DNA from: Lachnospiraceae bacterium
Lineage (GTDB): Bacteria; Bacillota; Clostridia; Lachnospirales; Lachnospiraceae
Assembly: GCA_029062895.1 (NCBI GenBank)
Contig: JAIDPF010000050.1
Coordinates: 1-46,684 of the forward strand
Reading direction: 5' to 3'
DNA: 46,684 nucleotides
How positions within the stretch are numbered: position 1 is the stretch's first letter; each line of letters begins with the position of its first letter. The notes beneath the pieces were generated by a model, which did no database searches, was not told the origin of the DNA, and saw only the letters and a list, made by a program, of their open reading frames with translations. Positions 1 through 21,539 of the stretch are shown one piece after another. Made by a program: the position numbers and the translations under genes.

Positions 1-810
1 GTATTAGGACATGCATTTTATGGATATTATAGTACAATTTTTGAATCTATTTTAGTATGGGGAGACTGTAAGAGGGGAGGGATACAGCTTTCTATAGATG
101 GTATATCCATAAAGGTTGGTTCATTGGATGAATTCAATAATGTTTGTGAAGTTTTAGTGGAGAAGGTTTATTCATATTTTATTAATAATACAAAGAAGGA
201 TATTGTTTTTGATGTTGGCATGAATATAGGAGATGCAGTTTTGTTTTTTTTATCAGATCCTAAGGTGGAAAAAATATATGCTTATGAGCCATTTAAAGAT
301 ACTTTTGCATCAGCAAGGGAAAATTTGAAGGAATATTTAGATGATACCGATAGACTGGAAATTTTTCAATTTGGTATTAGCGATAAAAATGAAGTGCGAA
401 AAATAGGATTTAATGAAGGGATGACATGTGGACAAAGTACAGTGGAATCAATAAGGCAAACTGTGTATGAAGAGTATTACGCCAATGGTCTGGTTAAACC
501 GGAAAACGAACAAACGGATCAAATTGAGGTAAAAGATGCTGTAGATGTTTTTAACCCTATTTTTGAGAAATATTCCAACGATAACAATATGGTTTTGAAG
601 ATGGATTGTGAAGGAGAAGAATACGGAATTATTAGAGAACTTTATGAAAATGCTTTATTAGAAAAATTTGATTATATAATGTTGGAGTGGCATTATAAAG
701 GAAAAGAAGAAATTCTAAAATACTTAAATAAATCCGGATTTTCCTATTTGTGTGTTGATATAAGTAATGATATGGGTTCAATTTATGCATACCATATGCA
801 AAGCCGATAG
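1..810 (+). CDS. FkbM-family methyltransferase, 5'-truncated by the window edge
   Basis: The reading frame is open from base 1 to the TAG at 808-810, so 269 residues of a longer protein are visible. A TTG at 124 could be mistaken for the start, but the upstream codons encode sequence matching the protein at 7545-9350: here GISIKVGSLDEF, there EISIKVRSSDEF. The true start therefore lies outside the window. The SAM-binding motif I region reads DVGMNIGD, followed by the acidic YAYEP motif and the late MDCEGEE and LEWHYKG motifs of FkbM methyltransferases. Those enzymes O-methylate sugars or polyketides. The first 20 or so residues resemble the end of the Rossmann-like module that precedes the FkbM domain in the paralogue, so this is probably also a fusion. 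It is the first visible gene of the glycan cluster. The family is clear; the substrate is unknown. Confidence 0.85.
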   Translation, partial: VLGHAFYGYYSTIFESILVWGDCKRGGIQLSIDGISIKVGSLDEFNNVCEVLVEKVYSYFINNTKKDIVFDVGMNIGDAVLFFLSDPKVEKIYAYEPFKDTFASARENLKEYLDDTDRLEIFQFGISDKNEVRKIGFNEGMTCGQSTVESIRQTVYEEYYANGLVKPENEQTDQIEVKDAVDVFNPIFEKYSNDNNMVLKMDCEGEEYGIIRELYENALLEKFDYIMLEWHYKGKEEILKYLNKSGFSYLCVDISNDMGSIYAYHMQSR

Positions 811-824
811 AGATAGGGCATTGG

Positions 825-884
825 ACAATATGTTTTAAGGCGGTGTGTGCGCTATTGTAAGGATTGGCGGCTGAGGAATACATT
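825..884 (+). pseudogene. Relic of the 3' end of a class I methyltransferase gene
   Basis: Bases 845-879 match 10352-10386, inside the intact methyltransferase gene at 9381-10457, at 33 of 35 positions. The match becomes looser upstream to about 825. In the matching frame the relic reads KAVCALL, stop, GLAAEEY against KVACALLYGMAAEEL in the intact gene, so a TAT codon has become TAA. It sits between the truncated FkbM gene and the CapA gene. The simplest reading is that a second copy of the methyltransferase gene was deleted or recombined away, leaving only this scar. The relic also adds a false N-terminal extension (MAAEEYISNGGF) to the CapA reading frame. Confidence 0.7.
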
Positions 885-899
885 TCTAATGGAGGCTTT

Positions 900-2333
900 A
901 TGAGTTTTAAAGTTTTAGTTATAGGTGATATATGTATAAAGAAAGAATATGATCATAATTTGGTTGAGGATGAAGTGTTAAAAATGATAAAAGAACATGA
1001 TATTGTTTCATGTGATTTTGGAATTACAATATGTTCGTCAGCAAAGGAAGGGGTTATAAAAGTTGGACCATATGAAAGTCAGATAGATGGCAGCGTTATG
1101 CGGTGTAAAGAACTTGGAGTTAATTTGGTGAGATTGGCAGGCAATCATATTATGGATTATGGATTGGAAGGGGCGCAGGAATTAACTGATAAACTGGATG
1201 CCCTGGATATTGGTTGGATTGGTGTCTCATCGGATTATCAGGAGGCGTACCAGCCTGCCATCGTTTGTGTGGATAATATTAAACTGGCTTTTTTTTCAGT
1301 AGGACAGATGGAGTTTGGATGCTCTTATGAAAAAGGAGTCTCCGGGTTTGCATGGATTAATAGTCATGAATTGGAAAAGGAGATACAAAAAATTCGTGAT
1401 GAGGTGGATTATATATTTGTTTTTCCGCATGCAGGGGTTGAATCTACTCCGGTACCTATGCCGGAATGGAGAAATCGATATTATTCTTTGATTGATCTGG
1501 GAGCGGATTTTATTATGGCAACGCATCCACATATCATTCAGGGTGTTGAAAGGTATGGCCGGGGAGTAATAGCATATAGTCTGGGTAACTTTGCCTATGA
1601 TTATGAGAATCCGGATGATATAGATGATTGGAATAGATCTATAGGGATTTCATTTGAGATTTCTTCGGATGGTTATTCTTATGAGATCATTCCGTTTCAA
1701 TATGATAATGGGACGGTGAAGATAGTTAATGATAATGTGTTTAGAGAAAAATTTGAATTTGCCAATAAGCTCTTATTAAATAATGATCTCTATCATAATG
1801 AATTAGATAAGGTTTGTGAAGAATTTTGGTATAAATATTATTCCGGCTATTATGCAATAAATACTGTAAAAAGTGGTGGGATAATAAATAGTGCGTTCCT
1901 TTTTCATAATATAGGGATAGAATCGCATGATTATATATGTAGAAGAGCTTTGCGAAATAGAATGTATAGTGAAACAGACTGTAAAAATAATGTGCTGGAA
2001 GAAGTTTATCTGTTGTGGGGGGCAGGAAAGATTGGGCATGCTGCAGTTAAATACTGTAGAAGCAAAAATGTTAAGATCATTGGTATTACTGATCGTAATG
2101 AGGCTTTATCGGGAGAATTTGTGGAAGAGTACAAAATTATCAATGTAGAAGATGCGATTCATAAATTGGAAGAATATCCCGAGGCAGTTGTTATGGCATG
2201 TGCTGGTATATATCTTATGAGCGAGATTAAATGTGTGCTTTTTGATAAAGTGGGAAGCAGGCGGTGTATTTCTTACGAAGATTTTAGAACAATAATTTTC
2301 ATTGAAGAGTTGTTAGAGGAGTTAAAGAAATAA
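900..2333 (+). CDS. CapA-family metallophosphatase fused to a Rossmann-like module
   Basis: The frame opens at a TTG at 864, but those first 12 codons are the methyltransferase relic. The ATG at 900 with GGAGG just upstream (891-895) is the better start and gives 477 residues. Residues 1-300 form a CapA/PGA_cap-type calcineurin-like phosphoesterase. Visible metal-site motifs are GDICI near the N terminus, AGNH near residue 82, PHAG near 177 and THPH near 209, followed by YSLGNFAYD. Family members act in poly-gamma-glutamate capsule and other surface polymer assembly. No signal peptide or membrane anchor is seen, so a cytoplasmic location is likely here. Residues from about 368 (LLWGAGKIG, then ITDRNEAL) form the Rossmann-like module shared across the cluster. 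The stop overlaps the next start as TAATG. The phosphatase fold is secure; its role is inferred from context. Confidence 0.85.
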   Translation: MSFKVLVIGDICIKKEYDHNLVEDEVLKMIKEHDIVSCDFGITICSSAKEGVIKVGPYESQIDGSVMRCKELGVNLVRLAGNHIMDYGLEGAQELTDKLDALDIGWIGVSSDYQEAYQPAIVCVDNIKLAFFSVGQMEFGCSYEKGVSGFAWINSHELEKEIQKIRDEVDYIFVFPHAGVESTPVPMPEWRNRYYSLIDLGADFIMATHPHIIQGVERYGRGVIAYSLGNFAYDYENPDDIDDWNRSIGISFEISSDGYSYEIIPFQYDNGTVKIVNDNVFREKFEFANKLLLNNDLYHNELDKVCEEFWYKYYSGYYAINTVKSGGIINSAFLFHNIGIESHDYICRRALRNRMYSETDCKNNVLEEVYLLWGAGKIGHAAVKYCRSKNVKIIGITDRNEALSGEFVEEYKIINVEDAIHKLEEYPEAVVMACAGIYLMSEIKCVLFDKVGSRRCISYEDFRTIIFIEELLEELKK

Positions 2334-3502
2334 TGAATTACTATATAGTTGCAGATATGATGATAAAGGCAATTATGAGCAGTTTAAAGTTAGATAAGTT
2401 GTGTTTATTTGGGATGGGAGACGCGTGTAATTCATTTTTAGACAATTCGATACTGCGTAACGATGTCGAGAAAATTTTTGATAACGACTCAAGCAAATGG
2501 GGAGGAATTAAAAATGTATTGTCACCGGAATATATAAATCGGGATTTAAATGCATTGTATATTATTATGTCTATGTATGATGAAGAGATAGGAAAACAAT
2601 TGCAGGCGCTTGGCGTGACGAATTATATTTCTTATTATCAGGTACTGGATTTTATCAAAGTAAAACTTGGACTGGCACATATTTCCATTAAGGCATGTAT
2701 GATAGAGGCGACAAATTATTGTAATGCGGCATGTTCGTTTTGTGCTAATCCTACAATGAAGCGGAAGAAGATGCATATGACTTCCGATATTTTTGAAAAA
2801 ATAATTGAAAGATTACATATTGAAAACCAGACGCCGGAATGGTTTTGGTTACATTGTTTGGGGGAACCGCTTTTAGATCCTGATATTTTCCAAAAAGTGC
2901 ATAGGTTAAAAGTAGAGTTTCCCAATAGTAAAGTTGGCTTTACCAGTAATTTTTCTATTGCGAATGCAGATACGATCGATTCAATTTTTACATCTGGACA
3001 GGATTATATATACATTAGTTTAAATGCAATAAATGAGACTGATTATGAACAGATCATGCATTTGAAATATCAGAAAACCTTGAGTAATATTAATGATCTT
3101 TTAAGGGAAAAAGAAAAGAGACAATCAGAAATTCAAATAGTTTTGTCAATAGTCGAGACACCTGGTAATGAGCAGCAGGTTAATTTGTTCAAAGAAAACT
3201 GGGGTACAAAGGCTGAGGTCAGAGTCATCAAACAAGGAAAGTGGATTGATAGCAGATTAAAAAGTGAAAGCAGAAGAAAAAGGCATCTGGTATGTAACCA
3301 GTTGTTAGAAGAGATATGTATTTTGAGCAATGGAGATTATGCACTGTGTTGTTTTGACGGGGAGGGAACAATTCCTTTGGGAAATGTAATGGAACGTTCG
3401 CTTGCTGAAATGTTTGTTTGTGAAGAAAAGCAAATGATAATTGATCAATTTTTGTTTTCAGATAAGGAAGTTTCAGTATGCGCAGAGTGCAGCTTTTATT
3501 AA
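2333..3502 (+). CDS. Radical SAM/SPASM protein with N-terminal Rossmann-like module
   Basis: The protein has 389 residues and is translationally coupled to the CapA gene by a TAATG overlap. Residues about 20-110 are the cluster's Rossmann-like module (CLFGMGDACNSF, then FDNDSSKWGG). The radical SAM core follows, with the 4Fe-4S motif C130-x3-C134-x2-C137 (YCNAACSFC) in the usual CxxxCxxC spacing. The C terminus has a SPASM-like set of cysteines (LVCNQLLEEICILSNGDYAL, CCFDGEG, VCAEC), which would bind a further iron-sulfur cluster. Radical SAM/SPASM proteins in surface-glycan loci are often annotated as sugar-modifying oxidoreductases or epimerases. The reaction here cannot be read from the sequence. 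The fusion of the module to this fold is unusual. Confidence 0.85.
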   Translation: MNYYIVADMMIKAIMSSLKLDKLCLFGMGDACNSFLDNSILRNDVEKIFDNDSSKWGGIKNVLSPEYINRDLNALYIIMSMYDEEIGKQLQALGVTNYISYYQVLDFIKVKLGLAHISIKACMIEATNYCNAACSFCANPTMKRKKMHMTSDIFEKIIERLHIENQTPEWFWLHCLGEPLLDPDIFQKVHRLKVEFPNSKVGFTSNFSIANADTIDSIFTSGQDYIYISLNAINETDYEQIMHLKYQKTLSNINDLLREKEKRQSEIQIVLSIVETPGNEQQVNLFKENWGTKAEVRVIKQGKWIDSRLKSESRRKRHLVCNQLLEEICILSNGDYALCCFDGEGTIPLGNVMERSLAEMFVCEEKQMIIDQFLFSDKEVSVCAECSFY

Positions 3503-3975
3503 TGAAGGCAAGCAGGGGGATGAAAAGCAAAATGCAGATAGAAAAAGAAATTACAGAGGAACACTATAAGGGGGTGGACGTTTCGTGGAACTTGGAACGA
3601 AATAGACTCACTCTCAATGCTGAATTGCTTAATAGATGGCTGTATTTAAAAATAAAAGGGAAATCATTGGGCAGATATCTCTTGGAAAGAAATATTTGCA
3701 GAGTGGCGATTTATGGTATGGCGGATTTGGGAATACGTTTGTATGAGGAACTGACGAATGATGGGGTATTAGTAAAATATGGAATAGATCGGATGCCGAA
3801 TAAAGTTGATTTGCGAAATAAGTTGTTGATTGTAGATGCCAGCGAAGAATTTGATCCGGATATTGATATGGTGATTGTAACACCGGTATTATATTTTGAT
3901 GAGATAGGAAAGTTGATAAACAGTAAAATAAGTTGCCCGATTATGTCAATCAAGGATTTGATTTGGGAGGTGTGA
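3502..3975 (+). CDS. Free-standing Rossmann-like module protein
   Basis: About 157 residues, with no enzyme domain beyond the module. The frame opens at ATG 3478 inside the radical SAM gene. I prefer ATG 3502 because it overlaps the preceding stop as TAATG, exactly as at the junction before it; ATG 3532 is also possible. After a helical lead-in (LNRWLYLKIKGKSLGRYLLE) comes the module: VAIYGMADLGIRLYEEL, then YGIDRMPN, then DIDMVIVTPVLYFDEI. The protein at 12958-13434 and the C-terminal third of the GT2 at 14406-15581 share both the lead-in helix and the module, so the three form a subfamily. Function is unknown; a nucleotide or nucleotide-sugar binding or docking role is a guess from the fold. 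Confidence 0.7.
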   Translation: MKASRGMKSKMQIEKEITEEHYKGVDVSWNLERNRLTLNAELLNRWLYLKIKGKSLGRYLLERNICRVAIYGMADLGIRLYEELTNDGVLVKYGIDRMPNKVDLRNKLLIVDASEEFDPDIDMVIVTPVLYFDEIGKLINSKISCPIMSIKDLIWEV

Positions 3976-3985: not shown

Positions 3986-5941
3986 ATGTGTGGAATTGCA
4001 GGATGTATAGCTTTAGGAGATAGTTTGATTGAATGGAAAAAGGACAGAGAATATTTGAAGCATATGCTTGATATACAAAAGCACCGTGGACCAGATGACA
4101 GGGGAATGCGAGGTTTTCGATATCATTGTGACAGAAGTGTTGATTTAATTAAAAAAAATGAAATAGAGGATGTTTTCCATGGTGTGATAGGATTTAACAG
4201 ATTAAGTATACAGGATTTATCAGTCAATGGGCATCAACCTATGTGTAGTGAAAAAGAAGATATTATCTTGGCATTTAATGGAGAAATATATAATGCAGAT
4301 ATTTATCGAAGGGAATTAATAAAAGCTGGTTATAAATTTCATAGTACTACAGATACAGAAGTGATATTAAACCTCTATATAGATAGAGGAATTGAAGAAA
4401 CGCTGAGAGCTTTGAACGGAATGTTTGCAATTATGATTGTGGATATGAGGAAGGGCAGAGTCTATATTGCAAGAGACCGTTTCGGCATTAAACCGATGTA
4501 TTATTTGCTACATGAAAAAAGAGCATATTTTAGTTCGGAAATCAAAAGCTTTCTGACAATTCCGGATTATCAACCACATATTGATAATGACGCGCTAAAT
4601 GAATGTTTAATATATATTTCATCTCCGGAGAAAACATTAATTAAAGAAATACAACAGATTAAACCCGGAGAGCTTATGTGCATTGATGGGGAAAATATAA
4701 GAAAGGAAAAATTTTTTGATATTGATCAATATCAACATGTTTCTGAAAATGCTTCTTTAAAAGAAAAAATGGAAGAATTAGATGAAATACTGCGTGATGC
4801 TGTCGGACGGCAAATGGTGAGTGATGTGGCTGTCGGTTGCCAATTATCAGGAGGCGTGGATTCTTCTTTGATCAGCTTTTATGCTTCTCATAATTCGGAA
4901 AATAAGATGAACGATAGCGTTTCTATTATATTTAAGGATGCCTTTTTGAACGAAGAGAACTATATTGACGAGGCAGCGGAAAATATAAATGTTCATTCTC
5001 ATAAATATACTTTTGATGGCAGAGTACTGATCGAAAATATGAAACAGGCAGTATGGCATCTGGAATCAATACCAACGGTGCCGAATGCGAATGCATTGAT
5101 GCTATTAACAAGAAAATCAAAAGAAAACGTTACAGTTTTACTTAGTGGGGAGGGCGCTGATGAAGTATTTGGCGGATATACTGACTTCGAGAGAGTAAAA
5201 ATTATGGAGTTCAATGCCAAATATAACATGGGAAAGCAGTTTCAATTTATTGACAGAGAATGGAATCTGATCAGGAAGCCGAAGGATGTCTTGGACTTTG
5301 CCATTTTGTGTCAAATATATGTTTCTCCTGAAAGATGCGCCAAATTGTTGAATAGGAAGACGGATTATTCTCCGTTGATGAGGAGACGGGAGGAAATTTC
5401 TAAATATAGCGGAAGCAATATAGATAAGCTTACTAAATATGAGATGAATAATTATTTGGTGGATTTGCTTGTCAGGCAGGACAAGATGTCGATGGCCAAC
5501 TCCATTGAAAACCGAGTCCCTTTTTTAGATAATGAAGTGGTTGATTTTGCGTTTTCACTGCCGGAAAATTTTAAAGTAGGTTTAAATCAGTATAATTATG
5601 AAACAAAAAGTGCGCGGGGATTTGAATTAATTACCGGAAAATACATATTAAAAGAATTATGTGCAAAAAAATTTAACAGAAAATTTGCATATAGAGGGAA
5701 AGGTGGTTTTGGTTTACCACTTCGTTACTTTATGGGAATGCCGGAATTTAAAAACATTTATGATGAGACCATAAAATCCATGAAAAAACGAGGGCAAGTA
5801 AATACGGAATATATTTTATGGCTATATGACAGGCTGCCAGTGTTGGATTGGAGTGAAATAGAACTTTTATGGAGAGCGCTTAACATTGAAATTTTTATGG
5901 AAGAATTTATAGATAAAAGAGGTGTTAGTTTATGTTGTTAA
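3986..5941 (+). CDS. asnB: Asparagine synthetase, glutamine-hydrolysing (AsnB family)
   Basis: The 651-residue product starts MCGIAGC, so Cys2 is in place as the N-terminal nucleophile of a class II glutamine amidotransferase domain (about 1-230, with RLSIQDLS, FNGEIYN and the RDRFGIKP segment). The synthetase domain carries the PP-loop SGGVDSS at residues 288-294, the GEGADEVFGGY segment, and the late RQDKMSMANSIENRVPFLD motif. The enzyme transfers ammonia from glutamine to a carboxylate through an acyl-adenylate. Free aspartate is the classical substrate. In surface-glycan clusters such enzymes are thought to amidate uronic acids or amino-acid substituents, which fits this setting better. 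It overlaps the following glutaminase-less relative by 10 bases. Family certain, substrate open. Confidence 0.92.
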   Translation: MCGIAGCIALGDSLIEWKKDREYLKHMLDIQKHRGPDDRGMRGFRYHCDRSVDLIKKNEIEDVFHGVIGFNRLSIQDLSVNGHQPMCSEKEDIILAFNGEIYNADIYRRELIKAGYKFHSTTDTEVILNLYIDRGIEETLRALNGMFAIMIVDMRKGRVYIARDRFGIKPMYYLLHEKRAYFSSEIKSFLTIPDYQPHIDNDALNECLIYISSPEKTLIKEIQQIKPGELMCIDGENIRKEKFFDIDQYQHVSENASLKEKMEELDEILRDAVGRQMVSDVAVGCQLSGGVDSSLISFYASHNSENKMNDSVSIIFKDAFLNEENYIDEAAENINVHSHKYTFDGRVLIENMKQAVWHLESIPTVPNANALMLLTRKSKENVTVLLSGEGADEVFGGYTDFERVKIMEFNAKYNMGKQFQFIDREWNLIRKPKDVLDFAILCQIYVSPERCAKLLNRKTDYSPLMRRREEISKYSGSNIDKLTKYEMNNYLVDLLVRQDKMSMANSIENRVPFLDNEVVDFAFSLPENFKVGLNQYNYETKSARGFELITGKYILKELCAKKFNRKFAYRGKGGFGLPLRYFMGMPEFKNIYDETIKSMKKRGQVNTEYILWLYDRLPVLDWSEIELLWRALNIEIFMEEFIDKRGVSLCC

Positions 5942-7233
5942 CAAATGCGCAGACAGATTGTCTTGCATCCCGTAATATTTTTTATAATAAAAGAACAAAC
6001 AAAATTGCAGATAACATTAATGAGGTATTAGATCCTGATCACATTGAATTTCATGCTGAAGGGTTAAGAAATTATTTGGATTATGGATATTCTGTTTTTG
6101 GACAGACTTTTGTAGAAGATGTTCATATTTTACCTGCTAACCATAGAATATGGACAGATGAGGAAGGGAAAATACAGATTGAAGAATTGAAAGATCCCTT
6201 TGAGGATAAATTAGATATTCCGTCTAAACCGCAGGAGACGTTGGAGTGTATCCGGGCGGCGGTATCTGAATGGGAACAGAAAGCAGAAGGTACGATTATT
6301 ATTCCTACAAGTTCAGGATTTGATTCGAGACTTTTGAACTGTATGATCTCCGCAAAGGATAGGATACATGCATATACTTATGGTATTTCTGATGTTCAAT
6401 CGCAGTCACAGGAGGTAGTCTATGCAAAGAAATTATGTGAAATTCTGCAGATTGACTGGCATCAGATAGAACTTGGGAAAATTCATAATTATTTTGAAGA
6501 ATGGTATAAATTATATGGATTTTCCACTCATGCTCATGGAATGTACCAGATGGAGTTTTATGATATCATAGGGAAAATAGAAAACAATTGCGGGAATGTA
6601 CTGAGCGGTATTTACGGTGATTTGTGGGCTGGAAATTGGAAGTTCGATAATTTAAAGAACAGTCGTGATTTAGAAAATCTTGCTATAACGCATGGATTGC
6701 ATGCGGATTCTGCGTTTTGTAAATTGTCAGAAAAACATGAAATTCGAGATGCGTTTTATGAAAAACACAGAGAAAAATTAAAGGATGAAAAGTGGAGGAT
6801 TATTTTTGCGGCCAGAATGAAAATGGTGCTGTTATCCTATTTACTTCAAGTACCGCAATATTATGGTTTTTCAACATGGTCGCCCTTTATTAATGTAGAA
6901 GTAATTTCTCAGATGATTAATTTGGATCGAAAAGAAAAAGAGAGGAGAAAATGGCAAGTTGATTATTTTAAAAGTAATGGAGTATTAATTGGAGAGATGG
7001 GGCTGGTATGTGATGCAAACAATACATTAAATGTGACGGCTTGTCACACAATTATACCTGAACCGTTAAATGTAAAACTTCTGGGAACATTGATGGAGGA
7101 GCATTATGTAGAGAGTATCAATAAAAAACTACCAGCGATCAATCATATTGCAGATAGTGCCTATTGTGGTTATCTCACTCTGTTTCCATTGCAAAAAATC
7201 TTGGAGATAAAGGAATATGGCCGAGAAAAATAA
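5932..7233 (+). CDS. Asparagine-synthetase-like PP-loop protein lacking the glutaminase half
   Basis: The 433-residue protein begins inside the end of asnB. Its PP-loop reads SSGFDS (residues 127-132) where asnB has SGGVDS, and GIYGDLWAGN takes the place of GEGADEVFGG, so an AMP-forming synthetase core is likely. Its N-terminal 100 residues (RNIFYNKRTNK, then YLDYGYSVFG, then VHILPANHRI) resemble only the last part of the AsnB glutaminase domain. The Cys2 nucleophile and roughly the first 130 residues of that domain are missing. It would need ammonia from another protein, plausibly the adjacent AsnB, or could use a different nucleophile, as related beta-lactam synthetase-like enzymes do. The overlap with asnB suggests the two act together. 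Substrate unknown. Confidence 0.8.
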   Translation: MLLTNAQTDCLASRNIFYNKRTNKIADNINEVLDPDHIEFHAEGLRNYLDYGYSVFGQTFVEDVHILPANHRIWTDEEGKIQIEELKDPFEDKLDIPSKPQETLECIRAAVSEWEQKAEGTIIIPTSSGFDSRLLNCMISAKDRIHAYTYGISDVQSQSQEVVYAKKLCEILQIDWHQIELGKIHNYFEEWYKLYGFSTHAHGMYQMEFYDIIGKIENNCGNVLSGIYGDLWAGNWKFDNLKNSRDLENLAITHGLHADSAFCKLSEKHEIRDAFYEKHREKLKDEKWRIIFAARMKMVLLSYLLQVPQYYGFSTWSPFINVEVISQMINLDRKEKERRKWQVDYFKSNGVLIGEMGLVCDANNTLNVTACHTIIPEPLNVKLLGTLMEEHYVESINKKLPAINHIADSAYCGYLTLFPLQKILEIKEYGREK

Positions 7234-11393: not shown

Positions 11394-11723
11394 ATGGTGT
11401 ATATAGGGAATCTGGATTATGATGAACATATAAAGAAGGCAACGGGGATTATTATTTTTGGAGGCGGATCCATGCTGCCTCATCTTCTCAAAAAAATGGA
11501 GCAACATGATTTGATAGAAAAAGTTATAGCGATATGCGACAATAACACAGACCTGCAGGGAAAAGAGATATCGGGTATCCCCGTGTTAGCGCCGGATGAT
11601 GTTTGCAAAAAATATATAAACATGGATTTTATAGTTTACAATCAGTATTTTATGGAGATTTGTGAACAATTGTATAAGAATCGCATTACCCAAATCCATT
11701 TGATAAGGCAGGATAGTTTATGA
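11394..11723 (+). CDS. Free-standing Rossmann-like module, minimal 109-residue form
   Basis: This is the smallest version of the module in the cluster, with practically nothing else attached. It reads GIIIFGGGSMLPHLLKKM, then VIAICDNNTDLQGKEISGIP, then MDFIVYNQYFMEICEQL. Glycine-rich loop, acidic second strand (CDNN) and closing beta-alpha unit are all present, so the domain appears complete as a fold. It has no catalytic partner, being placed between a deacetylase and a GT4. It overlaps the next start by four bases (ATGA). A free copy beside many fused copies suggests a binding or scaffolding unit that can act in trans. Function unknown. Confidence 0.7.
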   Translation: MVYIGNLDYDEHIKKATGIIIFGGGSMLPHLLKKMEQHDLIEKVIAICDNNTDLQGKEISGIPVLAPDDVCKKYINMDFIVYNQYFMEICEQLYKNRITQIHLIRQDSL

Positions 11724-12961: not shown

Positions 12962-13434
12962 AAAAAGGAGTTATTTCTGTGCTATCAGCAGTAATAGGAG
13001 CAACAGTAGGTGCGTGTGCGGCAGGAAAGGTGATACTTGAGGAAGGGGAAAAGGTGAAGAACATGTCGGACAAGCATCTGTCGCTTTTTCTGATGATGAA
13101 CCAGTGGGTAAAGGTAAAGCAGGAGGGGAAAAACTTATCAGAATATTTTGAGAAAAACGGCTATAAAAAAATTGCGGTTTATGGTATGAGTTACGCGGGC
13201 GAGACGTTAATTGATGAACTGAGAGATACGCAGATAAAAGTAGTTTATGGTATTGATAAGAATGCAGATGCTATCTACGCAGATGTGGATATCTTATCGC
13301 TGGAGGATGATTTTAGCGATGTAGATGCAGTGGTGGTTACAGCGATTACATTTTTTAAGGAAGTAGAGGAAAAACTTTCTAAAAAGATGGATTGTCCGAT
13401 TATTTCACTAGAGGATATTCTATACGAAGTATAA
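12958..13434 (+). CDS. Rossmann-like module protein with a hydrophobic N-terminal segment
   Basis: The protein has 158 residues. Residues 4-24 (GVISVLSAVIGATVGACAAG) after MKK form a small-residue-rich hydrophobic segment, consistent with a membrane anchor or an uncleaved signal. A helical lead-in follows (MNQWVKVKQEGKNLSEYF), then the module (IAVYGMSYAGETLIDEL, YGIDKNAD, VDAVVVTAITFFKEVEEKL). The lead-in and module match the free-standing protein at 3502-3975 closely, but that one has no hydrophobic start. If the segment is an anchor, this copy would sit at the membrane where the glycan is assembled. No lipobox with cleavage context is evident; the ACAAG stretch is only suggestive. Function unknown. 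Confidence 0.7.
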   Translation: MKKGVISVLSAVIGATVGACAAGKVILEEGEKVKNMSDKHLSLFLMMNQWVKVKQEGKNLSEYFEKNGYKKIAVYGMSYAGETLIDELRDTQIKVVYGIDKNADAIYADVDILSLEDDFSDVDAVVVTAITFFKEVEEKLSKKMDCPIISLEDILYEV

Positions 13435-13505
13435 TGGAGATACAAAACCACTTATAAAAAATGGATGGTTACGTTATTGGAGGTATTAGGAGGCACGGGA
13501 TAGGG

Positions 13506-14384
13506 ATGATTATTGTTAGAATATGGGAAGGGCTTGGCAACCAGCTTTTTCAATATGCTTTTGCAAGGGCAGTATCTTTGTCAACAAACCAGAAGGTTTT
13601 TCTGGATATTCGAGAAACGGGAAGCTGTATGGGAGAACAGAATAAAGTTCAAAGAGAATGTGGATTAAGAAACTTTAGGATTTTTTTGCCTATATGTAAT
13701 AATGTTCAGCATTTTTATCCATATATAAATGGGCCTCAGGTTATTAAGGAAGCTGCAAAGCGGATTTCAATAAATGGATGGATGCCATATAAGTATTATG
13801 AAGAAACTGAGTTGGGTTATCATGAAGAGTTATTAAGATTAGATGGAAACTGGTATTTGCAGGGGTGGTTTCAGGATAGCCGATATTTTGATAAGTATAG
13901 TGCAATTATTGCAAAAGAGATATTCCCTAGGAAAAAGATACGGATAAGCAAAACATTACGGGAACATCTGGAAAGGTCTAATACCGTTTCTGTTCATATC
14001 AGAAGAGGTGATTATGCCAGAACATTTAACGCAATTCCGGATAGTTATTATGTGAATGCTATGAAACATATGAAAGAACTTGTAGATAATCCATTCTGGA
14101 TTATCTTTTCTGATGAGCCTGACTGGGTTAAACGAAATATTGATTTTGGTTATAATTGCTATTATGTCAGTGGAAATGAGTGTTTAAAGGATTATGAAGA
14201 AATGTTCGTTATGAGTTGTTGCAAAAATAATATCATAGCTAACAGTACTTTTAGTTGGTGGGGAGCATGGTTGAATGGCAATCATGATAAGGTGGTGATT
14301 GCTCCAAATCACTGGTTCCTAAAAGGAGTCAGTGGATGTGAGAAAAATATTCTGCCGGTAGAATGGATTCGAGAGTCTATTTAA
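13506..14384 (+). CDS. Alpha-1,2-fucosyltransferase-like, GT11
   Basis: The frame is open from ATG 13461, but AGGAGG at 13488-13493 and the conserved N terminus IVRIWEGLGNQLFQYAFARA point to ATG 13506, giving 292 residues. GT11 hallmarks are GLGNQLFQYAFA at the N terminus, H164-IRRGDY (the H-x-R-R-x-D motif of alpha-1,2/alpha-1,6 fucosyltransferases), IIFSDEPDWV, and NSTFSWWGAWL with KVVIAPNHWF near the end. These enzymes use GDP-L-fucose and act in the cytoplasm. No GDP-fucose synthesis gene lies in the window, so the donor would be made elsewhere, or the donor specificity differs from the family norm. The family assignment is strong. Confidence 0.9.
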   Translation: MIIVRIWEGLGNQLFQYAFARAVSLSTNQKVFLDIRETGSCMGEQNKVQRECGLRNFRIFLPICNNVQHFYPYINGPQVIKEAAKRISINGWMPYKYYEETELGYHEELLRLDGNWYLQGWFQDSRYFDKYSAIIAKEIFPRKKIRISKTLREHLERSNTVSVHIRRGDYARTFNAIPDSYYVNAMKHMKELVDNPFWIIFSDEPDWVKRNIDFGYNCYYVSGNECLKDYEEMFVMSCCKNNIIANSTFSWWGAWLNGNHDKVVIAPNHWFLKGVSGCEKNILPVEWIRESI

Positions 14385-14405: not shown

Positions 14406-15581
14406 ATGAATACTGTAACTATAATTGTTCCAATATTTCATGGCAAAAAATATATAGACAACATGATTGATCAGCTCGAGAAATGTGCATCAAGGAGTGT
14501 TGGCGGATGCACCTTGGAACTTCTGTTGGTCAATGACGATCCGGATGAACAGATAGGCAGCTTTTCTTCTGATATAATAGATGTAAAAGTCATTGAAACT
14601 GATAAGAATAGGGGGATCCACGGAGCCAGAGTCAGAGGGTTGGACTATTGTAGGGGCGATTATGTCCTTTTTTTGGATCAGGATGACAGGATATATCCGG
14701 ATTATTTTAATAGTCAGCTAGCGCATCTGGCGGATAAAGATGCTGTTGTATGTAAGCTCCTTCATGAAGGGCGGCAGTTCTATGATACCAGAATGCCTTT
14801 TGAGAAAGTGATCAACAGAGAATATATAGTCGGCGTCAAAAATCCGATCATTTCTCCGGGACAAGTATTGCTCAGGAAAGATAGAATTCCAAAGATTTGG
14901 ACAAAACTTGAACTAAAAAATAACGGGGCAGACGACTGGCTGTTGTGGCTGTGTATGATTGCAGAAGGACAGGAGTTTGCGTTGAATCCTGAACTTCTAT
15001 TTGAACATGTGGTGGAAGGGGAAAATGAGTCGATAAATGTAAAACATATGATGGATTCGGAGGCAGAGTTGTATGATGCAGTGAAAGCAAACGGAATCCT
15101 TACAGGGCAGGAATTGGAAAAACTGCATGATGCTGTAGAAGCGGTGGCAGCAGCCCATATAGGAATACTGGTTAAGTTTCAAAAAATGTTTTTTGTATAC
15201 GACTCATGGCTGAGATTGCAGGAACAGGGTATCAGTATATCCGTCTATTTACGGCAACGAGGTATTTATAGTATAGCATTGTATGGATACAATCAGATTG
15301 GAAAAAGACTGTATCACATTCTTTCAAAAGAAGGAGTAAGCGTCAATTATTTTATCGATTTGAACGCAGAGTATCTGAAGGAAGAAATACCGATATACCA
15401 GCCGGAGGATTCGCTCCCGCAGGTGGATATGATCATTATATCGTTGGTGGAAGCGGTAGACAGTATAAAGGAGAAACTGTCTCATTTGACGAAAATGAAA
15501 GTATGTGGGATTATGGAATTGCTTGGGGAGATGAAGATATTTTCCAAGTCGCATCTGATAGGAGAGGATAACGGGATATGA
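14406..15581 (+). CDS. Glycosyltransferase family 2 with C-terminal Rossmann-like module
   Basis: The protein has 391 residues, and AAGGAG (14390-14395) precedes ATG 14406. Residues 1-220 are a GT-A inverting transferase: VTIIVPIFHGKKYIDNMI, LLLVNDDPDE, the NRGIHGARVRGL segment and the metal-binding FLDQDDRIYP. Residues from about 270 contain the lead-in helix (YDSWLRLQEQGISISVYL) and the Rossmann-like module (IALYGYNQIGKRLYHIL, FIDLNAEY, VDMIIISLVEAVDSI). This C-terminal part looks like a fused form of the free-standing proteins at 3502 and 12958. The stop overlaps the next start as ATGA. The donor and acceptor sugars cannot be deduced. Confidence 0.87.
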   Translation: MNTVTIIVPIFHGKKYIDNMIDQLEKCASRSVGGCTLELLLVNDDPDEQIGSFSSDIIDVKVIETDKNRGIHGARVRGLDYCRGDYVLFLDQDDRIYPDYFNSQLAHLADKDAVVCKLLHEGRQFYDTRMPFEKVINREYIVGVKNPIISPGQVLLRKDRIPKIWTKLELKNNGADDWLLWLCMIAEGQEFALNPELLFEHVVEGENESINVKHMMDSEAELYDAVKANGILTGQELEKLHDAVEAVAAAHIGILVKFQKMFFVYDSWLRLQEQGISISVYLRQRGIYSIALYGYNQIGKRLYHILSKEGVSVNYFIDLNAEYLKEEIPIYQPEDSLPQVDMIIISLVEAVDSIKEKLSHLTKMKVCGIMELLGEMKIFSKSHLIGEDNGI

Positions 15582-16966
15582 AATATCTGATCTTTGGAAC
15601 AGGAGAGTATTACATTCGATATAAGAAATGGTTTGCAAAGGAAGATATCGTTGCGTTAATTGACAACGCTGTTGGTAAACAGAATACATATTTGGATGGA
15701 ATACAGATCCTTTCGCCGGAACAAGGGGTAAAGCTTGCATATGATGCGGTTATGATCTTGAGTTTCTATGTGAAGGAGATGAAAAAGCAGCTATTAGCGC
15801 TGGGAGTTCCGGAAGAGCGTATTTATCATTTCTACGACCTTCACAATTTAATTTGCCGGGGTGATGAGGAACAGGCGGCAGATTATAAGAAACCCGTACA
15901 ATATTATGGAGGAGCGGAAGCTGTGGAGAAGTCCTCCTGCACTCTGCTTTTGTCGCATGATCTTACCTTGGGTGGACCCGCGATTGCTTTATATCATATG
16001 GCGAGAGTGCTTAAAACACGAGGAGATAAGGTTGTATTTGCATCGACACTGGATGGACCATTGAGAGATATGTTGATCTCCGAGGGGATTCCCGTGATTG
16101 TGGATGTGAATTTACAGATAGAAACCATGCGTGAGGCAAAATGGACAGCAGGATTTTCGTGTATTGTATGTAATACGATAAATTTTTATGTATTTTTATC
16201 GGATAGGGATACAAAAGTGCCGGTTGTGTGGTGGCTGCATGATTCAGCATTTTTTTATGAGGGCGTAGATAAGCAAATACTTAGTGGATTGAACCGGGAG
16301 AATATGCAGGTTTATGCAGTAGGACCGGTTGCAAGGAAGGCACTGGCCCAATTTTTACCGGATATGGAAATTGGTGATTTGATTTATGGAGTTGCTGACG
16401 AAGCGGCATTTTGTGATAAATCGAATGATGACAATAAGAAAATTTGTTTTGTAACGATCGGATATATTGAAGCCAGAAAAGGACAAGATATTCTGGTGCG
16501 GGCGATTCAGAAAATCCCGAAAGAGGTCCGCGAAAAAGCAAAGTTTTATCTGATAGGACAAAACACATCTCAAATGGCGGAGAGTATTAAGGAAACAATA
16601 CAAGATATTCCGGAGATTATCATGACCGGGACTATGGACAGGAAGGGAATTCATGATATACTTGAATGTGCAGATGTCATGGTTTGTCCGTCAAGAGAAG
16701 ACCCGATGCCGACGGTAGCAGCTGAGGCGATGATGCACAAAGTATTCTGTATCGTATCAGATGCGACAGGCACAGCAGAATATATATGCAGCGGAATAGA
16801 TGGAATAGTATTCCACAGTGAGGACGAACAGGAATTGACTGATAAGATCATCTGGTGCATAGAGCACCAAGACAAATTAGCTGATATGGGAATACGCGCA
16901 AGAGAAATTTATGAGAAACAGTTTTCTATGACAGCTTTTGAGAAGAAGGTAACGGAAATATTGTAA
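15578..16966 (+). CDS. Glycosyltransferase family 4 with N-terminal Rossmann-like module
   Basis: The protein has 462 residues. Residues 1-95 are the module (YLIFGTGEYYIRYKKWF, ALIDNAVGKQ, YDAVMILSFYVKEM). After a linker, a GT-B glycosyltransferase begins at about residue 112: LLLSHDLTLGGPAIALYHMA, VVWWLHDSAFF, VTIGYIEARKGQDILVRAI, MTGTMDRKGIHDIL, and the donor-site segment PSREDPMPTVAAEAMMHK. The module lies at the opposite end from its position in the GT2 encoded immediately upstream, so at the gene level the two modules are adjacent across a four-base overlap. That arrangement could reflect exchange by recombination at gene ends. Sugar specificity unknown. Confidence 0.87.
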   Translation: MKYLIFGTGEYYIRYKKWFAKEDIVALIDNAVGKQNTYLDGIQILSPEQGVKLAYDAVMILSFYVKEMKKQLLALGVPEERIYHFYDLHNLICRGDEEQAADYKKPVQYYGGAEAVEKSSCTLLLSHDLTLGGPAIALYHMARVLKTRGDKVVFASTLDGPLRDMLISEGIPVIVDVNLQIETMREAKWTAGFSCIVCNTINFYVFLSDRDTKVPVVWWLHDSAFFYEGVDKQILSGLNRENMQVYAVGPVARKALAQFLPDMEIGDLIYGVADEAAFCDKSNDDNKKICFVTIGYIEARKGQDILVRAIQKIPKEVREKAKFYLIGQNTSQMAESIKETIQDIPEIIMTGTMDRKGIHDILECADVMVCPSREDPMPTVAAEAMMHKVFCIVSDATGTAEYICSGIDGIVFHSEDEQELTDKIIWCIEHQDKLADMGIRAREIYEKQFSMTAFEKKVTEIL

Positions 16967-17052
16967 TACTGAGAGTGGAATACGCTACTGTCCATGCAAA
17001 AAGAACAGCAAACGAAATATGCCATAAGAAATATATAGTAAGGGTGTTGAAA

Positions 17053-19461
17053 ATGAAAAAGAGAGAGATTTTGTCCATTATAGATTCTTTGGAAAAAATA
17101 AATACTTCTGTTACAAAAAATCTGGAATCCAATATTCCTGTGACAACAGAAGTTTTGGCTGATTGTCAAGATGCGGCAATCCAAATTGGTAATACAATTG
17201 AAAAGCAGGGACAGGAAGTCGAAGAGATCGTTCACATGTTAGAAGCATATTGTGAGAATATCTACCAGATGAATTGCGTGCAGGCGGATACCAATTTGTG
17301 CAGAAAACTGACCAAGAAGATTCAAAAGCAGTTAGTGCAGATTCGTAATCGTGTGAACTATGATCTGCCGGATGATAAGAAACAGGTTGTTTTTCTGCCC
17401 TATAAGGCATCTATGTGGGACAGTCTGGAAAGTGTCTGGAAAGCGGCAGATGCCGATCCGAATTGTGATGCGTATGTCATACCTATTCCTTATTTTGATA
17501 AGAATCCTGATGGAAGTGTTCGGGAAATGCACTATGAAGGGGATCTGTACCCGGAATATGTGCCAATCGTATCGTGGCAACAATACGATATAGCGGCAGA
17601 ACATCCGGATGTGATTTATATACATAATCCATATGATGAGTATAATCTGGTAACCAGCGTTCATCCTGCCTATTATTCTAAAGAATTAAAAAAATACACG
17701 GATGAATTAGTGTATATACCTTATTTTATCTTGAGAGAGATAGAGCCGGATGATCAGGCGGCCGTGCAGGGGATGGAACATTTCTGCATAGTTCCTGCGG
17801 TTGTCTATGCAGACAAGGTAATCGTGCAGTCAGAGAAGATGCGGCAGATTTATATCAATGTGATGACAAAGACGATGGGGGAAGATACGAGAAAGATCTG
17901 GGAAAAGAAGATATTTGGATCGGGTTCTCCGAAAGTGGAAAAGCTGCTGAATACGAAAAAAGAAGATTTGGAGATTCCGGAGGAATGGCGAAAGATCATA
18001 GAGAAACCGGATAGAAGCTGGAAGAAGATAGTATTCTATAATATAGGGGTGTCGGCGCTTCTTGCATATGGTGAGAATGTGCTTCGAAAAATGGAATCCG
18101 TGTTTGGGATATTTAAGGAGAATCAGGATGAAGTGGCGCTCTTGTGGAGACCTCATCCGTTAATTAAGGCAACAATTGAATCCATGCGTCCACAGCTTTG
18201 GTTAGAATATGAGAAGCTTTTGGAGCGATATCAGGAAGAAGGCTGGGGGATTTATGACGATTCTGCGGATGTGGATCGGGCGATTATCTTAAGCGACGCA
18301 TACTATGGGAATCACAGTAGCGTGGTACAGTTGTGTCAGCAGACAGGGAAAAAAATTGCTATACAAAATGATAAAGATATATTGGATAGTGCGGAAATAA
18401 TCAATGATCAGGAGAAAGTGTATCTTCTTACAAGGGATACACAAAGCCTGTTTGAATATTCGATATCGTCTGGAACTCTCAGATTATGTGGTATGGTACA
18501 AACTAAATTAGAACAGACATTTATTTCTGCAACATTATACGAGAATAAAATATACATACCCCCTTATGCCGGAGACTGCATTCGGGTTTATGATATCTGC
18601 CAAAAAAAGTTTCATAGTATTCTATTAACACAGTCAACGGTGGAAAAACTAAATAAAAAGTACTATCAGATATGTTTTGGATATGGAGGAAAGGTATATA
18701 TACTAGGGGGCGGAGATTCTGTGATACTGTCTGTGGATGTCCGGAATGAAACGGTGCAGGAACTTTCAAACTGTCACGATGGGTTTAAAAAACTATACGG
18801 ATATGAGGCAGGTGTGTATATCCATAAAAATGTATGCATTGTAGAGAACTGCTTTTGGGTGCCGATGAGCTGCGATAATATTTTACTGCAATATGATATG
18901 CAGAAAGATGAATGTTATTTTTGGAATGTTGGTCTAAGAAAGATGCAGTATGCGACTATAAATTTTGATGGGAAGTATTTCTGGCTTACAGGAAATCAGA
19001 AAGTGATTGTCAGATGGGAAAAGGAAAGTGATAGCGTAAAAGAATTCGAAGCATTTCCAACCGGATTTGAGTGTTCAAATGATCGTGTGGGATGGGACGA
19101 TTTGTTTTTATGCGGATTTTTATTGAAAGATCAATTATACTATGCACCATTAGATTCAAATATGGTTATTAAATTTGACACAAAGAAAGAAAAAATGGAA
19201 TGTATCTTAAAAATTGACTCCGATCATGTATGTTTGAATATGGAGAAAATGAACGAAGATACATTATATTTAGAAGAGTATGACTCGAATCCGGTTCTTT
19301 ATCAAACGTACTTGATTGATTCAAAGGGTAAATGTGAGAAAATTTCCCCCTGTCTTAGTGAAAAAGATGATGTTAATGTACTTGTCAACTGCATAGAACA
19401 AAGAACTGAAATGTTGGAGAATCATCCTAATTTTCTAAAATATTTTTTAAATCAATTGTAG
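17053..19461 (+). CDS. CDP-glycerol-transferase-like domain fused to a beta-propeller
   Basis: The frame can be read from GTG 16975, but AAGGG (17040-17044) before ATG 17053 gives the better start and 802 residues. Residues 1-100 are helical, coiled-coil-like (IDSLEKINTSVTKNLESN, then IEKQGQEVEEIVHMLEAY). Residues about 110-460 resemble GT-B CDP-glycerol glycerophosphotransferase-like proteins: VVFLPYKASMWDSLESVW, VIYIHNPYDEYN, VALLWRPHPLI, and the donor-site-like AIILSDAYYGNHSSVVQL. The C-terminal half carries repeated beta-rich units (NKIYIPPYAGDCIRVYDI, GKVYILGGGDSVILSVDV, GKYFWLTGNQKVIVRWEK), which looks like a kelch-type propeller. A teichoic-acid-like polyol phosphate transfer fits the CDP-alditol genes downstream, but this is inference. 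Confidence 0.7.
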   Translation: MKKREILSIIDSLEKINTSVTKNLESNIPVTTEVLADCQDAAIQIGNTIEKQGQEVEEIVHMLEAYCENIYQMNCVQADTNLCRKLTKKIQKQLVQIRNRVNYDLPDDKKQVVFLPYKASMWDSLESVWKAADADPNCDAYVIPIPYFDKNPDGSVREMHYEGDLYPEYVPIVSWQQYDIAAEHPDVIYIHNPYDEYNLVTSVHPAYYSKELKKYTDELVYIPYFILREIEPDDQAAVQGMEHFCIVPAVVYADKVIVQSEKMRQIYINVMTKTMGEDTRKIWEKKIFGSGSPKVEKLLNTKKEDLEIPEEWRKIIEKPDRSWKKIVFYNIGVSALLAYGENVLRKMESVFGIFKENQDEVALLWRPHPLIKATIESMRPQLWLEYEKLLERYQEEGWGIYDDSADVDRAIILSDAYYGNHSSVVQLCQQTGKKIAIQNDKDILDSAEIINDQEKVYLLTRDTQSLFEYSISSGTLRLCGMVQTKLEQTFISATLYENKIYIPPYAGDCIRVYDICQKKFHSILLTQSTVEKLNKKYYQICFGYGGKVYILGGGDSVILSVDVRNETVQELSNCHDGFKKLYGYEAGVYIHKNVCIVENCFWVPMSCDNILLQYDMQKDECYFWNVGLRKMQYATINFDGKYFWLTGNQKVIVRWEKESDSVKEFEAFPTGFECSNDRVGWDDLFLCGFLLKDQLYYAPLDSNMVIKFDTKKEKMECILKIDSDHVCLNMEKMNEDTLYLEEYDSNPVLYQTYLIDSKGKCEKISPCLSEKDDVNVLVNCIEQRTEMLENHPNFLKYFLNQL

Positions 19462-19499
19462 AAGAAATCATTATTTCCGCAAAGGGGTTCATTTGAAAA

Positions 19500-21539
19500 A
19501 TGATTGAGAAAATTATTGATCAGTATAAAAACAGAAAGATTGCACTTTACGGAATAGGGACGGAAACAGAGCGGTTCTTAACGGAACGCGGGAAGGAACT
19601 TTTGATTGTCGGCATATTAGATGGATTTAGAACGGATGGCGAGATCTATGGATATCCGATTATTCCTATTTCTGAAACACCGTCAAGGGATGTGAGTCTG
19701 ATCATTGTTGTGGCCCGCCCAGGATCATGCAAAGCAATTTCAAAGCGGATTGGCGAGTTTTGCCGTGCGCACGGTATTGCCCTTTTTGATGTGAGAGGCA
19801 GGGATTTACTTATAAACACCAGTGTTTCCTATGAATTTAGGAGTCTGAATGGAAATACAAAGCAAAGACTTTTAGATATGGCTTCCAATGCCGATGTGGT
19901 TAGTTTTGATTTATTTGACACACTTATTACAAGAAAAGTCTATACATATACGGATGTTTTTGAATTGGTTGATCTTAGACTGCGGGAAAAGGGGATCTGT
20001 ATACCGGATTTTGCAAAGCTTAGATTGTATGCAGAAAAGGAACTTTCAAAAGATAACGCTCCGAGACTGGAGGATATCTATGAATTTGTGCTGAAGAGCG
20101 TCGGGGGTAGTTTTATTACCGCTTCAGAGCTTGCTGTAATGGAATGGGAGATTGATTTATCCGTTATGCGTGCAAGAGATGCCGTTTGCGATATTTTCCG
20201 TAGGTTCACCTCTGAAGGAAAACAGATTGTCATTACAACAGACACCTATTATTCGGATGCACAGATAGGGCAGATTCTGAAACACTTTAATATAACCGGA
20301 GCAAATAGAATTCTGGTGTCAAGTGAGCTTGGTACATCAAAGACACAGAAGCTGTATGAGATGTTAACGAGGGAGTATCCTCTAAAGAAGATATTACATA
20401 TTGGAGATGATGAGCTGGCAGATATGGAAAAAGCTGCGCAGTATGGAATAGAGACTTATCGTATATATAGTGGTATGGATTTGTTTAGCGCTCTTGGCGG
20501 CTTGGGAATGGAGGATGACTTTCATACATTATCGGACAGAGTTAAGGCCGGGATGTTTATAGCCGGTATGTTCAACACTCCTTTTTGGTTTGAAGACGAG
20601 GAGCGAAAGCTGGCGGTAGATAATACGTTTGGGATAGGTTATTTGTTCTGTGCACCTATGATAACGGACTTTCTTCTATGGATGAAGAAAAAGGCGGAGG
20701 CGGAGGGGTATATGCAGATGCTTTTTTGCGCCAGAGATGGATATCTTCCTGAACGGTTATTCAAAGAGATATCATCCTATACGAATCCGGTCTATTTTCT
20801 CTCGTCCAGAACTGCGGTGATACGTGCCGGTATGGAAAATGAGCGGGACATCGAATATGTTGACAGCATGAAATACTTCGGTACGCCGGAGGAATTTTTA
20901 AGGGCACGTTTTGGAATTATTGTAGATGATATCAATAGTATTGACCGTGAGAAAGAGATTCTTCGAAAAGCAGGAGTTCAGCGGGAGTATTATAAAAAAT
21001 ATATAGAAAAACTGGATATTCAAGATTCCCCCATTGCCATGTTTGATTTTGTCGCAAAGGGTACAACGCAGATGTACTTGCAGAAACTGTTTAGCAATCC
21101 TTTAAAAGGATTTTATTTTCTTCAGTTGGAGTCCGAATTCATGGCTGACAAAGGATTGGATATTGAGTCGTTTTATTCGGTTAAAGAAAAGGATGCAAGC
21201 GCCATCTTTGACAATTACTATATTCTCGAAACGATACTGACATCACCTTATTCACAGTTGGAGGAATTTGACGCAAATGGAAATCCCGTATTTGCTGAGG
21301 AGACGCGTACTGATCAGGATATAAGGTGTTTTGAACAGGCGCAGCGCGGAATTACGGCTTATTTTGAGGAATATCTGGCGATTTTGCCGGATGCAGCGAG
21401 AATAGAGAATAAAAAGCTGGATGAAAAGCTGCTGGCTCTTGTAAATAAAATTGTGATAAAGGACGAGGATTTTCTGGCGCTTACGGTAGAGGATCCATTC
21501 TTCGGAAGAATGACGGATATTAAGGATGTCATTGGTTGA
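19500..21539 (+). CDS. HAD-family protein (COG5610-like) with N-terminal Rossmann-like module
   Basis: The protein has 679 residues. Residues 1-100 are the Rossmann-like module (IALYGIGTETERFLTERG, ILDGFRTDGEIYGYPI, SLIIVVARPGSCKAI). The HAD domain follows: motif I is D137-LFDTL, a TTDTYYSDAQI segment takes the motif II position, and HIGDDELADMEKAAQYGI is motif IV. The C-terminal 300 residues (CARDGYLPERLF, YFLSSRTAVIRAG, FDFVAKGTTQMYLQKLF) match the large HAD proteins commonly found in polysaccharide loci, whose role is not established. Phosphatase or phosphotransferase activity on a sugar phosphate is plausible. It is the last gene of the AT-rich glycan cluster; no clear terminator follows. 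Confidence 0.82.
   Translation: MIEKIIDQYKNRKIALYGIGTETERFLTERGKELLIVGILDGFRTDGEIYGYPIIPISETPSRDVSLIIVVARPGSCKAISKRIGEFCRAHGIALFDVRGRDLLINTSVSYEFRSLNGNTKQRLLDMASNADVVSFDLFDTLITRKVYTYTDVFELVDLRLREKGICIPDFAKLRLYAEKELSKDNAPRLEDIYEFVLKSVGGSFITASELAVMEWEIDLSVMRARDAVCDIFRRFTSEGKQIVITTDTYYSDAQIGQILKHFNITGANRILVSSELGTSKTQKLYEMLTREYPLKKILHIGDDELADMEKAAQYGIETYRIYSGMDLFSALGGLGMEDDFHTLSDRVKAGMFIAGMFNTPFWFEDEERKLAVDNTFGIGYLFCAPMITDFLLWMKKKAEAEGYMQMLFCARDGYLPERLFKEISSYTNPVYFLSSRTAVIRAGMENERDIEYVDSMKYFGTPEEFLRARFGIIVDDINSIDREKEILRKAGVQREYYKKYIEKLDIQDSPIAMFDFVAKGTTQMYLQKLFSNPLKGFYFLQLESEFMADKGLDIESFYSVKEKDASAIFDNYYILETILTSPYSQLEEFDANGNPVFAEETRTDQDIRCFEQAQRGITAYFEEYLAILPDAARIENKKLDEKLLALVNKIVIKDEDFLALTVEDPFFGRMTDIKDVIG

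Follow-up and report, generated by a model that had tools for sequence, protein, structure and literature searches.

A Rossmann-type module shared by unrelated enzymes of Lachnospiraceae glycan clusters, a candidate recruitment tag associated with flagellin genes in related genomes

The DNA analyzed here (the window, 46,684 nucleotides, G000:C62:1-46684) is a contig of a Lachnospiraceae genome assembled to 3.07 Mb in 115 contigs. Pfam/TIGR and open reading frame (ORF) scans show positions 1-21539 to be a single same-strand gene run, the majority of it glycan genes, and ten of these genes carry copies of one Rossmann module. We tentatively propose, as the explanation we favor, that this mobile module of the PglD_N/WbaP-DUF (domain of unknown function) superfamily serves glycan clusters as a shared tag for recruitment; in relatives these clusters lie mostly near flagellin genes. 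The fold and this type of island are known; the cluster-wide use of the module appears to be new.

In order to identify the module independently of the window, a profile was made from 169 modules of other contigs, with no window sequence included, although these modules had been recruited from window seeds. The profile recovered 10/10 window modules (E 1.2e-16 to 8.8e-5), every other window ORF scored at E 1 or above, and matches were found in neither shuffled (0/1792) nor reversed (0/1792) ORFs. The initial annotation had described one module across at least ten proteins, and the ten that it located are the ones found. BLASTP by itself linked only parts of the set, which comprises two sequence groups: group A (ORF 3478-3975, the protein encoded from 12958, and the GT2), in which a helical lead-in precedes the first strand, and the other seven. 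Group A and the remaining modules were joined by profile-profile comparison (E 9e-10).

Model-versus-structure comparison was done with VIA-align 2. The nearest solved folds were identical for models of two divergent copies (the proteins encoded from 11394 and 12958), which gives no sign of different folds among the segments, and one profile connects them all. The Rossmann-like fold of the predicted structures matches solved members of the PglD_N/WbaP-DUF superfamily, and the PglD_N-like layout first described was borne out by PglD_N and similar domains being nearest. The ten segments are one Rossmann module, belonging to the known PglD_N/WbaP-DUF/CAC2185 N-terminal superfamily.

Family matches of 148 isolated modules (E<=0.01) were most often to TIGR03570 (72/148) and PglD_N (29/148), that is, to the PglD_N/NeuD N-terminal domain (PF17836, TIGR03570), known from its position in front of sugar acetyltransferases. 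The curated Pfam cut-off was passed by one fused copy (in L086, PglD_N, 28.1 bits vs 23.4), and no window copy reached the curated score for PglD_N-like families in the Pfam/TIGR scan. The C2185-like N-terminal domain (PF22674; PDB 2g6t, Clostridium acetobutylicum) belongs to an uncharacterised protein, and a literature search under this name or PglD-type terms found nothing. In Salmonella WbaP, a large monotopic phosphoglycosyl transferase, the DUF (PF13727) is part of one enzyme, whereas in the present clusters enzymes with no relation to each other carry the module. WbaP also combines a four-helix bundle with a swapped beta-hairpin, whereas the 109-residue model has no C-terminal hairpin and the free 12958 form has one helix; both free-protein models consist of helices and a Rossmann head only, unlike the WbaP succession of four-helix bundle, hairpin DUF and catalytic domain. 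Rex redox repressors have a DNA-binding domain before a Rossmann domain that binds NAD(H), as is partly evident from PDB titles. The modelled free window modules differ in having the Rossmann domain with a short lead-in or one long helix and no DNA-binding domain.

Two sets of loci were used. The first (the window and 38 stretches from related genomes) was gathered by module matches and the second (80 loci) by the membrane form described below, so that module densities in either set are biased by selection of the loci. An iterative search at E<=1e-4 gave 176 module ORFs in the first set (76 N-terminal, 74 C-terminal, 23 free and 3 central); at the same threshold, 566 were found in the second (245 N-terminal, 191 C-terminal, 118 free and 12 central). 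Two false positives, both C-terminal domains of UDP-sugar dehydrogenases (L095:6636-8003 and L077:8529-8999), were removed for the motif and adjacency tests, and one or both remain in the 176-ORF, partner, site-conservation and family-tagging counts; 43 of the 742 module ORFs have E values of 1e-6 to 1e-4 and may hide further false positives. The fusion to unrelated enzymes noted at the outset extends well beyond the window: across the 119 stretches the module was found free or at the ends of proteins from more than 20 families, and 91% of 563 fused matches (E<=1e-6) lay within 40 residues of a terminus vs 25% expected.

Among the families listed for 146 fused proteins (first set minus the window), the partners were GT2 (36), radical SAM (16), FkbM, RgpF and GT4 (7 each), WbsX (6), LicD (5), GT8 (4), and TylF and CDP-glycerol transferase (3 each), with one or two cases each of TOD1, MptE-like, GT-D, TupA, DUF362, NKWYS, DUF4422, WcbI and GNAT. 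RgpF (25/25), HAD-679 (19/19, including the window HAD protein) and TOD1 (12/12) were tagged at every match, and AsnB (0/15) and the 828-residue protein (0/19) at none; the partner-family models were mostly built from tagged members, which favors tagged matches. A natural fusion (L187:8035-10107) reads by sequence as GT2, module, module and methyltransferase, as if tagged neighbor genes had merged. Further tandem modules were seen in L182:1428-2957 (tandem pair 2190-2951), L204:6312-7664, L086:2528-4216 and L186:12509-13228. LicD frames near module clusters (G103:C11, G493:C48, G662:C3) were about 400-420 residues long and many elsewhere about 270-320, lengths that were read off a listing and not counted; it looks as if LicD were tagged only near module clusters.

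Within clusters, the tag marks transferases and modifiers and almost never precursor-making enzymes. A precursor-enzyme motif was found in 16/362 untagged vs 1/582 tagged ORFs of both sets (p 2e-6), and the sole tagged case is a spurious N-terminus. The Pfam families listed for the 87 untagged ORFs inside first-set clusters include epimerases (5), IspD (4), short-chain dehydrogenases (3), UDP-GlcNAc 2-epimerase (2), and other nucleotidyl- and cytidylyltransferases. Because precursor enzymes are concentrated among the untagged ORFs, the tag goes with action on an acceptor. The initial annotation had suggested that a ligand such as a nucleotide might be what the tagged proteins have in common; this is now less supported, because no use of nucleotide sugars is known for radical SAM, methyltransferase, HAD and CapA proteins, and the makers of nucleotide sugars are untagged.

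The nucleotide site itself is partly conserved. In the glycine-rich loop, the first Gly is present in 97% of the 719 modules having that column, and the Asp after strand 2 in 79% of 731. In 97 membrane-type copies the third Gly and the Asp were each kept in 94 and the second Gly in only 22. As the first Gly and the Asp are conserved, the module may still bind a nucleotide, as predicted from its residues. Against such retention, the full loop and Asp (Gly/Ala/Ser accepted at the second and third place) are intact in only about half of fused copies (143/315 N-terminal, 150/264 C-terminal). The module could be imagined as a nucleotide sensor, binding a uridine or cytidine nucleotide by-product and throttling its enzyme, as proposed for the WbaP DUF. 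We regard this as rather unlikely, since for many tagged proteins neither use nor release of these nucleotides is known, and nucleotide-sugar enzymes lack the tag; it would also leave unexplained the free copies with a predicted membrane anchor and their adjacency to untagged enzymes.

These free copies include the protein encoded from 12958 in the window, which has a hydrophobic N-terminus and is modelled as one helix (residues 3-55) followed by the Rossmann head. The initial annotation mentioned neither this helix nor the association with flagellin described below. Hydropathy above 1.6 within the first 50 residues was found in 77/95 free group-A-like copies (at least 140 residues long) vs 33/720 untagged ORFs. 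A hydrophobic N-terminal helix was present in 12/19 complete free modules of the first set and 89/109 of the second at a threshold of 1.2, and in 8 and 73, respectively, at 1.6; 4/23 and 9/118 'free' modules touch stretch ends and may be fragments of longer proteins. The 12958 protein is unlikely to be a lipoprotein: although a lipobox-like stretch is present in it, only 5/95 group-A-like free copies contain one.

With the membrane-type alignment as bait, 80 loci were retained from 131 confirmed places, with stretches of up to 10 kb per side. The match was a free module in 72/80 loci, of which 71/72 also held a fused module and 63/72 three or more; among loci with full flanks, 58/58 held a fused module and 53/58 three or more. 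A wider count gave 78/80 loci with a fused module, in which the match itself may be the fused one. Five of the 80 matches lay outside any ORF called as a module protein, and the loci are partly non-independent, some sharing a contig.

Free modules also tend to lie beside proteins that have no module of their own. In the first set, 22/30 neighbors of free modules were without a module vs 15.6 expected (p 0.012). Unfused WbsX-type proteins had a free module immediately 3' in 2/3 cases of the first set and 5/8 of the second, the latter set having been chosen for free modules. The pair of deacetylase and 11394-type free module in the window was found again in L103 and L135, and a free module stood 5' of GT11 in 10/16 such proteins, the window's included, 15/16 coming from loci chosen for the free module.

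The clusters were then compared with the occurrence of flagellin (PF00669), which was detected in 213 of the 397 family genomes. In this collection the membrane-type model matched 53/397 at E<=1e-15, fused group-A copies included, and 53/53 of these had flagellin (p 1.5e-16 against 213/397 overall). A control family, LicD, showed no departure from expectation (249 genomes, 141 with flagellin, p 0.15). At least three matches of a model of the other seven modules were found in 21 of 150 genomes, with flagellin in 21/21 vs 82/150 (p 8e-7), and in a second module-rich set flagellin was present in 25/25 genomes, 14 of them outside the family. The module-rich set excludes G325 and G447 (four matches each, Rex- or NeuD-like by ORF length), and at most 17 candidates were scored per genome. 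The concern that the domain might be known and ordinary, and seldom form clusters elsewhere, is half justified, in that the fold is known, and half not, in that clusters recur in flagellated relatives.

Where cluster and flagellin share a contig, they are mostly close. From the cluster, whose position was mostly that of group-A matches, to the nearest flagellin-domain match on the same contig the median was 12.1 kb, and 25/30 genomes (including the single-contig G238, G326, G355, G640 and G676) had one within 30 kb. Outside this count of 30, same-contig distances were about 30 kb (G103), 18 kb (G152), 10 kb (G206) and 9 kb (G381). The module clusters are most likely flagellin-glycosylation islands. 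Gram-positive islands of this kind in Geobacillus and Clostridium are likewise glycan clusters linked to flagellin, with an FkbM-type methyltransferase and sugar-synthesis genes (PMC5109656). In passages of that and two other papers on these islands (PMC5109656, PMC13317340, PMC5207246), neither a shared Rossmann module nor a copy anchored in the membrane is mentioned. Titles and abstract openings of the openly licensed literature likewise hold no description of either, in agreement with the earlier statement that no described system of this kind was known.

Polytopic proteins were rare in the stretches covered (14/1792 ORFs), which gave no sign there of Wzx/Wzy or a transporter; the two polytopic window ORFs (25963-27660 and 45826-46518) lie outside 1-21539. 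Such scarcity is as expected for cytoplasmic protein modification. A capsule or exopolysaccharide reading was dropped because of the scarce polytopic membrane genes and the flagellin association. In Aeromonas, flagellin is reported to be glycosylated in the cytoplasm prior to export (PMC4065374).

Under the recruitment reading, the tag would sit on proteins that build or decorate a glycan on an acceptor (transferases, methyltransferases, radical SAM, HAD and CapA proteins). These cytoplasmic enzymes would gather via their modules, through module-module contact or a common partner, and the membrane-anchored copy, where present, would be one receptor in module-module contact. The gathered enzymes would modify flagellin in sequence before its export. 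Their contact may be stabilised or regulated by a nucleotide bound in the glycine-rich site, which is conserved. Recruitment was judged the most likely function because of the tagging and fusion pattern together with dimer data on two relatives. The WbaP DUF, which is among the nearest folds, is reported to dimerise and to be stabilised by uridine nucleotides (PMC10942596), and in a model of EpsZ a partner protein favors contact between the two halves of the dimer via the equivalent domains (PMC12802240). A bolder form, possible but doubtful, is a plug-and-play assembly for cytoplasmic protein glycosylation, in which a module on any acceptor-touching enzyme would dock to other copies, some on membrane stalks near the flagellar export site. 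The result would be a modular factory for decorating flagellin, in which strains could swap enzymes by exchange of tagged genes.

Several observations weigh against recruitment to flagellin. The statistics of flagellin presence ignore shared ancestry; PF00669 also matches hook-associated FlgL-type proteins, with a weaker nearest hit in a few genomes (G497, G676); cluster and flagellin are on different contigs in 18/52 genomes, and in two same-contig genomes they are 110 and 134 kb apart. In the source genome, flagellin is on contigs C5 and C99, away from the window contig. C99 starts within a flagellin gene and continues with late flagellar genes (names read from translations); contigs break there, and action of the window's own cluster on flagellin is presumed. 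The second module cluster of this genome adjoins a CDP-glycerol transferase, and some clusters may therefore make other polymers. That cluster (G000:C84:72000-84157; L228, L068) holds GT2s with C-terminal modules, a TagD-like cytidylyltransferase by sequence and the CDP-glycerol transferase by Pfam. The tagging rule has exceptions, with untagged transferases inside clusters (7 GT2 of the 87 ORFs, among families listed) and one cytidylyltransferase with a central module (L078:6581-7852). The membrane copy cannot be an obligatory hub, because 16/23 first-set stretches with at least four modules show no membrane-type copy, although one lying just outside would be missed. The conserved nucleotide-site residues would be unneeded by a pure docking tag. 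Finally, mean module identity between differing partners is 0.197 both within one genome and between genomes.

This last result bears on how the modules might recognise one another. Modules within a genome are as unlike as those of different genomes, which gives no hint of a docking code specific to each cluster, and that candidate was set aside as unsupported; the comparison of module sequences is more in keeping with a contact or ligand that is universal. The docking tag first put forward has gained some support, from the free copies with a predicted membrane anchor, the adjacency to untagged enzymes and the restriction to acceptor enzymes. Modules do follow their partner, mean identity being 0.232 for the same partner across genomes, as would be expected if they were a leftover of shared ancestry. 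On that reading, Clostridial glycan enzymes would have inherited the module as an extension that aids folding or stability, without any function in common, and it would have accumulated by shuffling within clusters. We consider this improbable, as it does not predict the conserved site residues, the free copies with a hydrophobic helix, the tagging rule or the flagellin association.

The near confinement of the tag to acceptor-acting proteins, and the company of flagellin, would equally suit a module that binds the acceptor, each copy binding flagellin or its glycan and free copies presenting flagellin at the membrane. The same fold occurs in VioB, PerB, C-methyltransferases and UDP-quinovosamine dehydrogenase, all acting on sugar nucleotides, which would favor this explanation. 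It is nonetheless unlikely in our view: identity among the modules of a single cluster is only about 20%, which is low for one common ligand, and binding of a protein acceptor is not known for any member of this fold.

The host immune system senses the flagellin of gut Clostridia, and little is known of how its glycan gets built. If recruitment is the function, a single tag on acceptor enzymes would reveal which genes belong together in poorly annotated islands. It would explain the coordination of unrelated cytoplasmic enzymes and offer a natural, evolvable module for enzyme assembly. For a widespread superfamily (PglD_N, coenzyme A-binding (CoA-binding) DUFs), it also supplies a function, open to test, for copies both free and fused.

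Within the window, the modules and their host genes are as follows, all on the forward (+) strand and with module limits from the profile unless stated. The module is C-terminal in the CapA/PGA_cap protein (ORF 864-2333, PF09587; module 1995-2258) and N-terminal in the radical SAM/SPASM protein (ORF 2333-3502, PF04055 and PF13186; module 2384-2641). A free group-A module without a membrane helix by hydropathy follows (ORF 3478-3975; module 3688-3957), then two untagged asparagine-synthase-like proteins (3986-7233). The GT2-FkbM fusion (ORF 7545-9350, PF05050) has a central module (8409-8675), and the methyltransferase (ORF 9381-10457) an N-terminal one (9381-9650), the weakest of the ten (E 8.8e-5). 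An untagged polysaccharide deacetylase (10484-11389) lies immediately 5' of the free 109-residue module (11394-11723), for which AlphaFold2 gave a predicted local distance difference test (pLDDT) of 90 and a predicted template modelling score (pTM) of 0.83.

An untagged GT4 (11720-12961) has a 4-base overlap with the free module gene on either side, the second of these being the predicted membrane-anchored copy (12958-13434), in which hydropathy and the model indicate a helical stalk (3-55) and a Rossmann head (71-157). An untagged GT11 (13461-14384) stands 3' of it. The group-A module of the GT2 (ORF 14406-15581, PF00535) is C-terminal (15261-15515, BLASTP and profile), and those of the GT4 (ORF 15578-16966, PF00534; module 15578-15832) and the HAD-type protein (ORF 19500-21539, TIGR01549; module 19524-19784) are N-terminal. 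Between the latter two is the untagged 828-residue protein (16975-19461), for which the family scan gave no Pfam match below 0.05 (the best being Kelch at 0.05); its N-terminal half, we presume, resembles glycerophosphotransferase-like proteins. The untagged genes of this run were assigned by family scan.

The window edge cuts the start of an FkbM methyltransferase (ORF 1-810, +), and its first residues, VLGHAFYG (1-24), align with VLGQNCYG, where the GT-FkbM module ends. The eleventh module that the initial annotation placed at the window start is thus a possibility from this alignment, 1-24 encoding perhaps its last residues. The end of contig C87 (L067:7216-7404) falls inside a module resembling the GT-FkbM one, and the window starts with what looks like the tail of a similar module. 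C87 and the window contig may be adjacent, broken apart by near-repeat sequence; going by the GT-FkbM module, some 75 bases would be missing between them.

Immediately 3' of the cluster (22380-24996) are consecutive genes for a ribulose-phosphate epimerase, an IspD-type cytidylyltransferase and an alcohol dehydrogenase, a set that, judging from these assignments, could make CDP-ribitol. A thiamine pyrophosphate (TPP) riboswitch (RF00059, 61 bits) occupies the window end on the minus strand (46586-46684).

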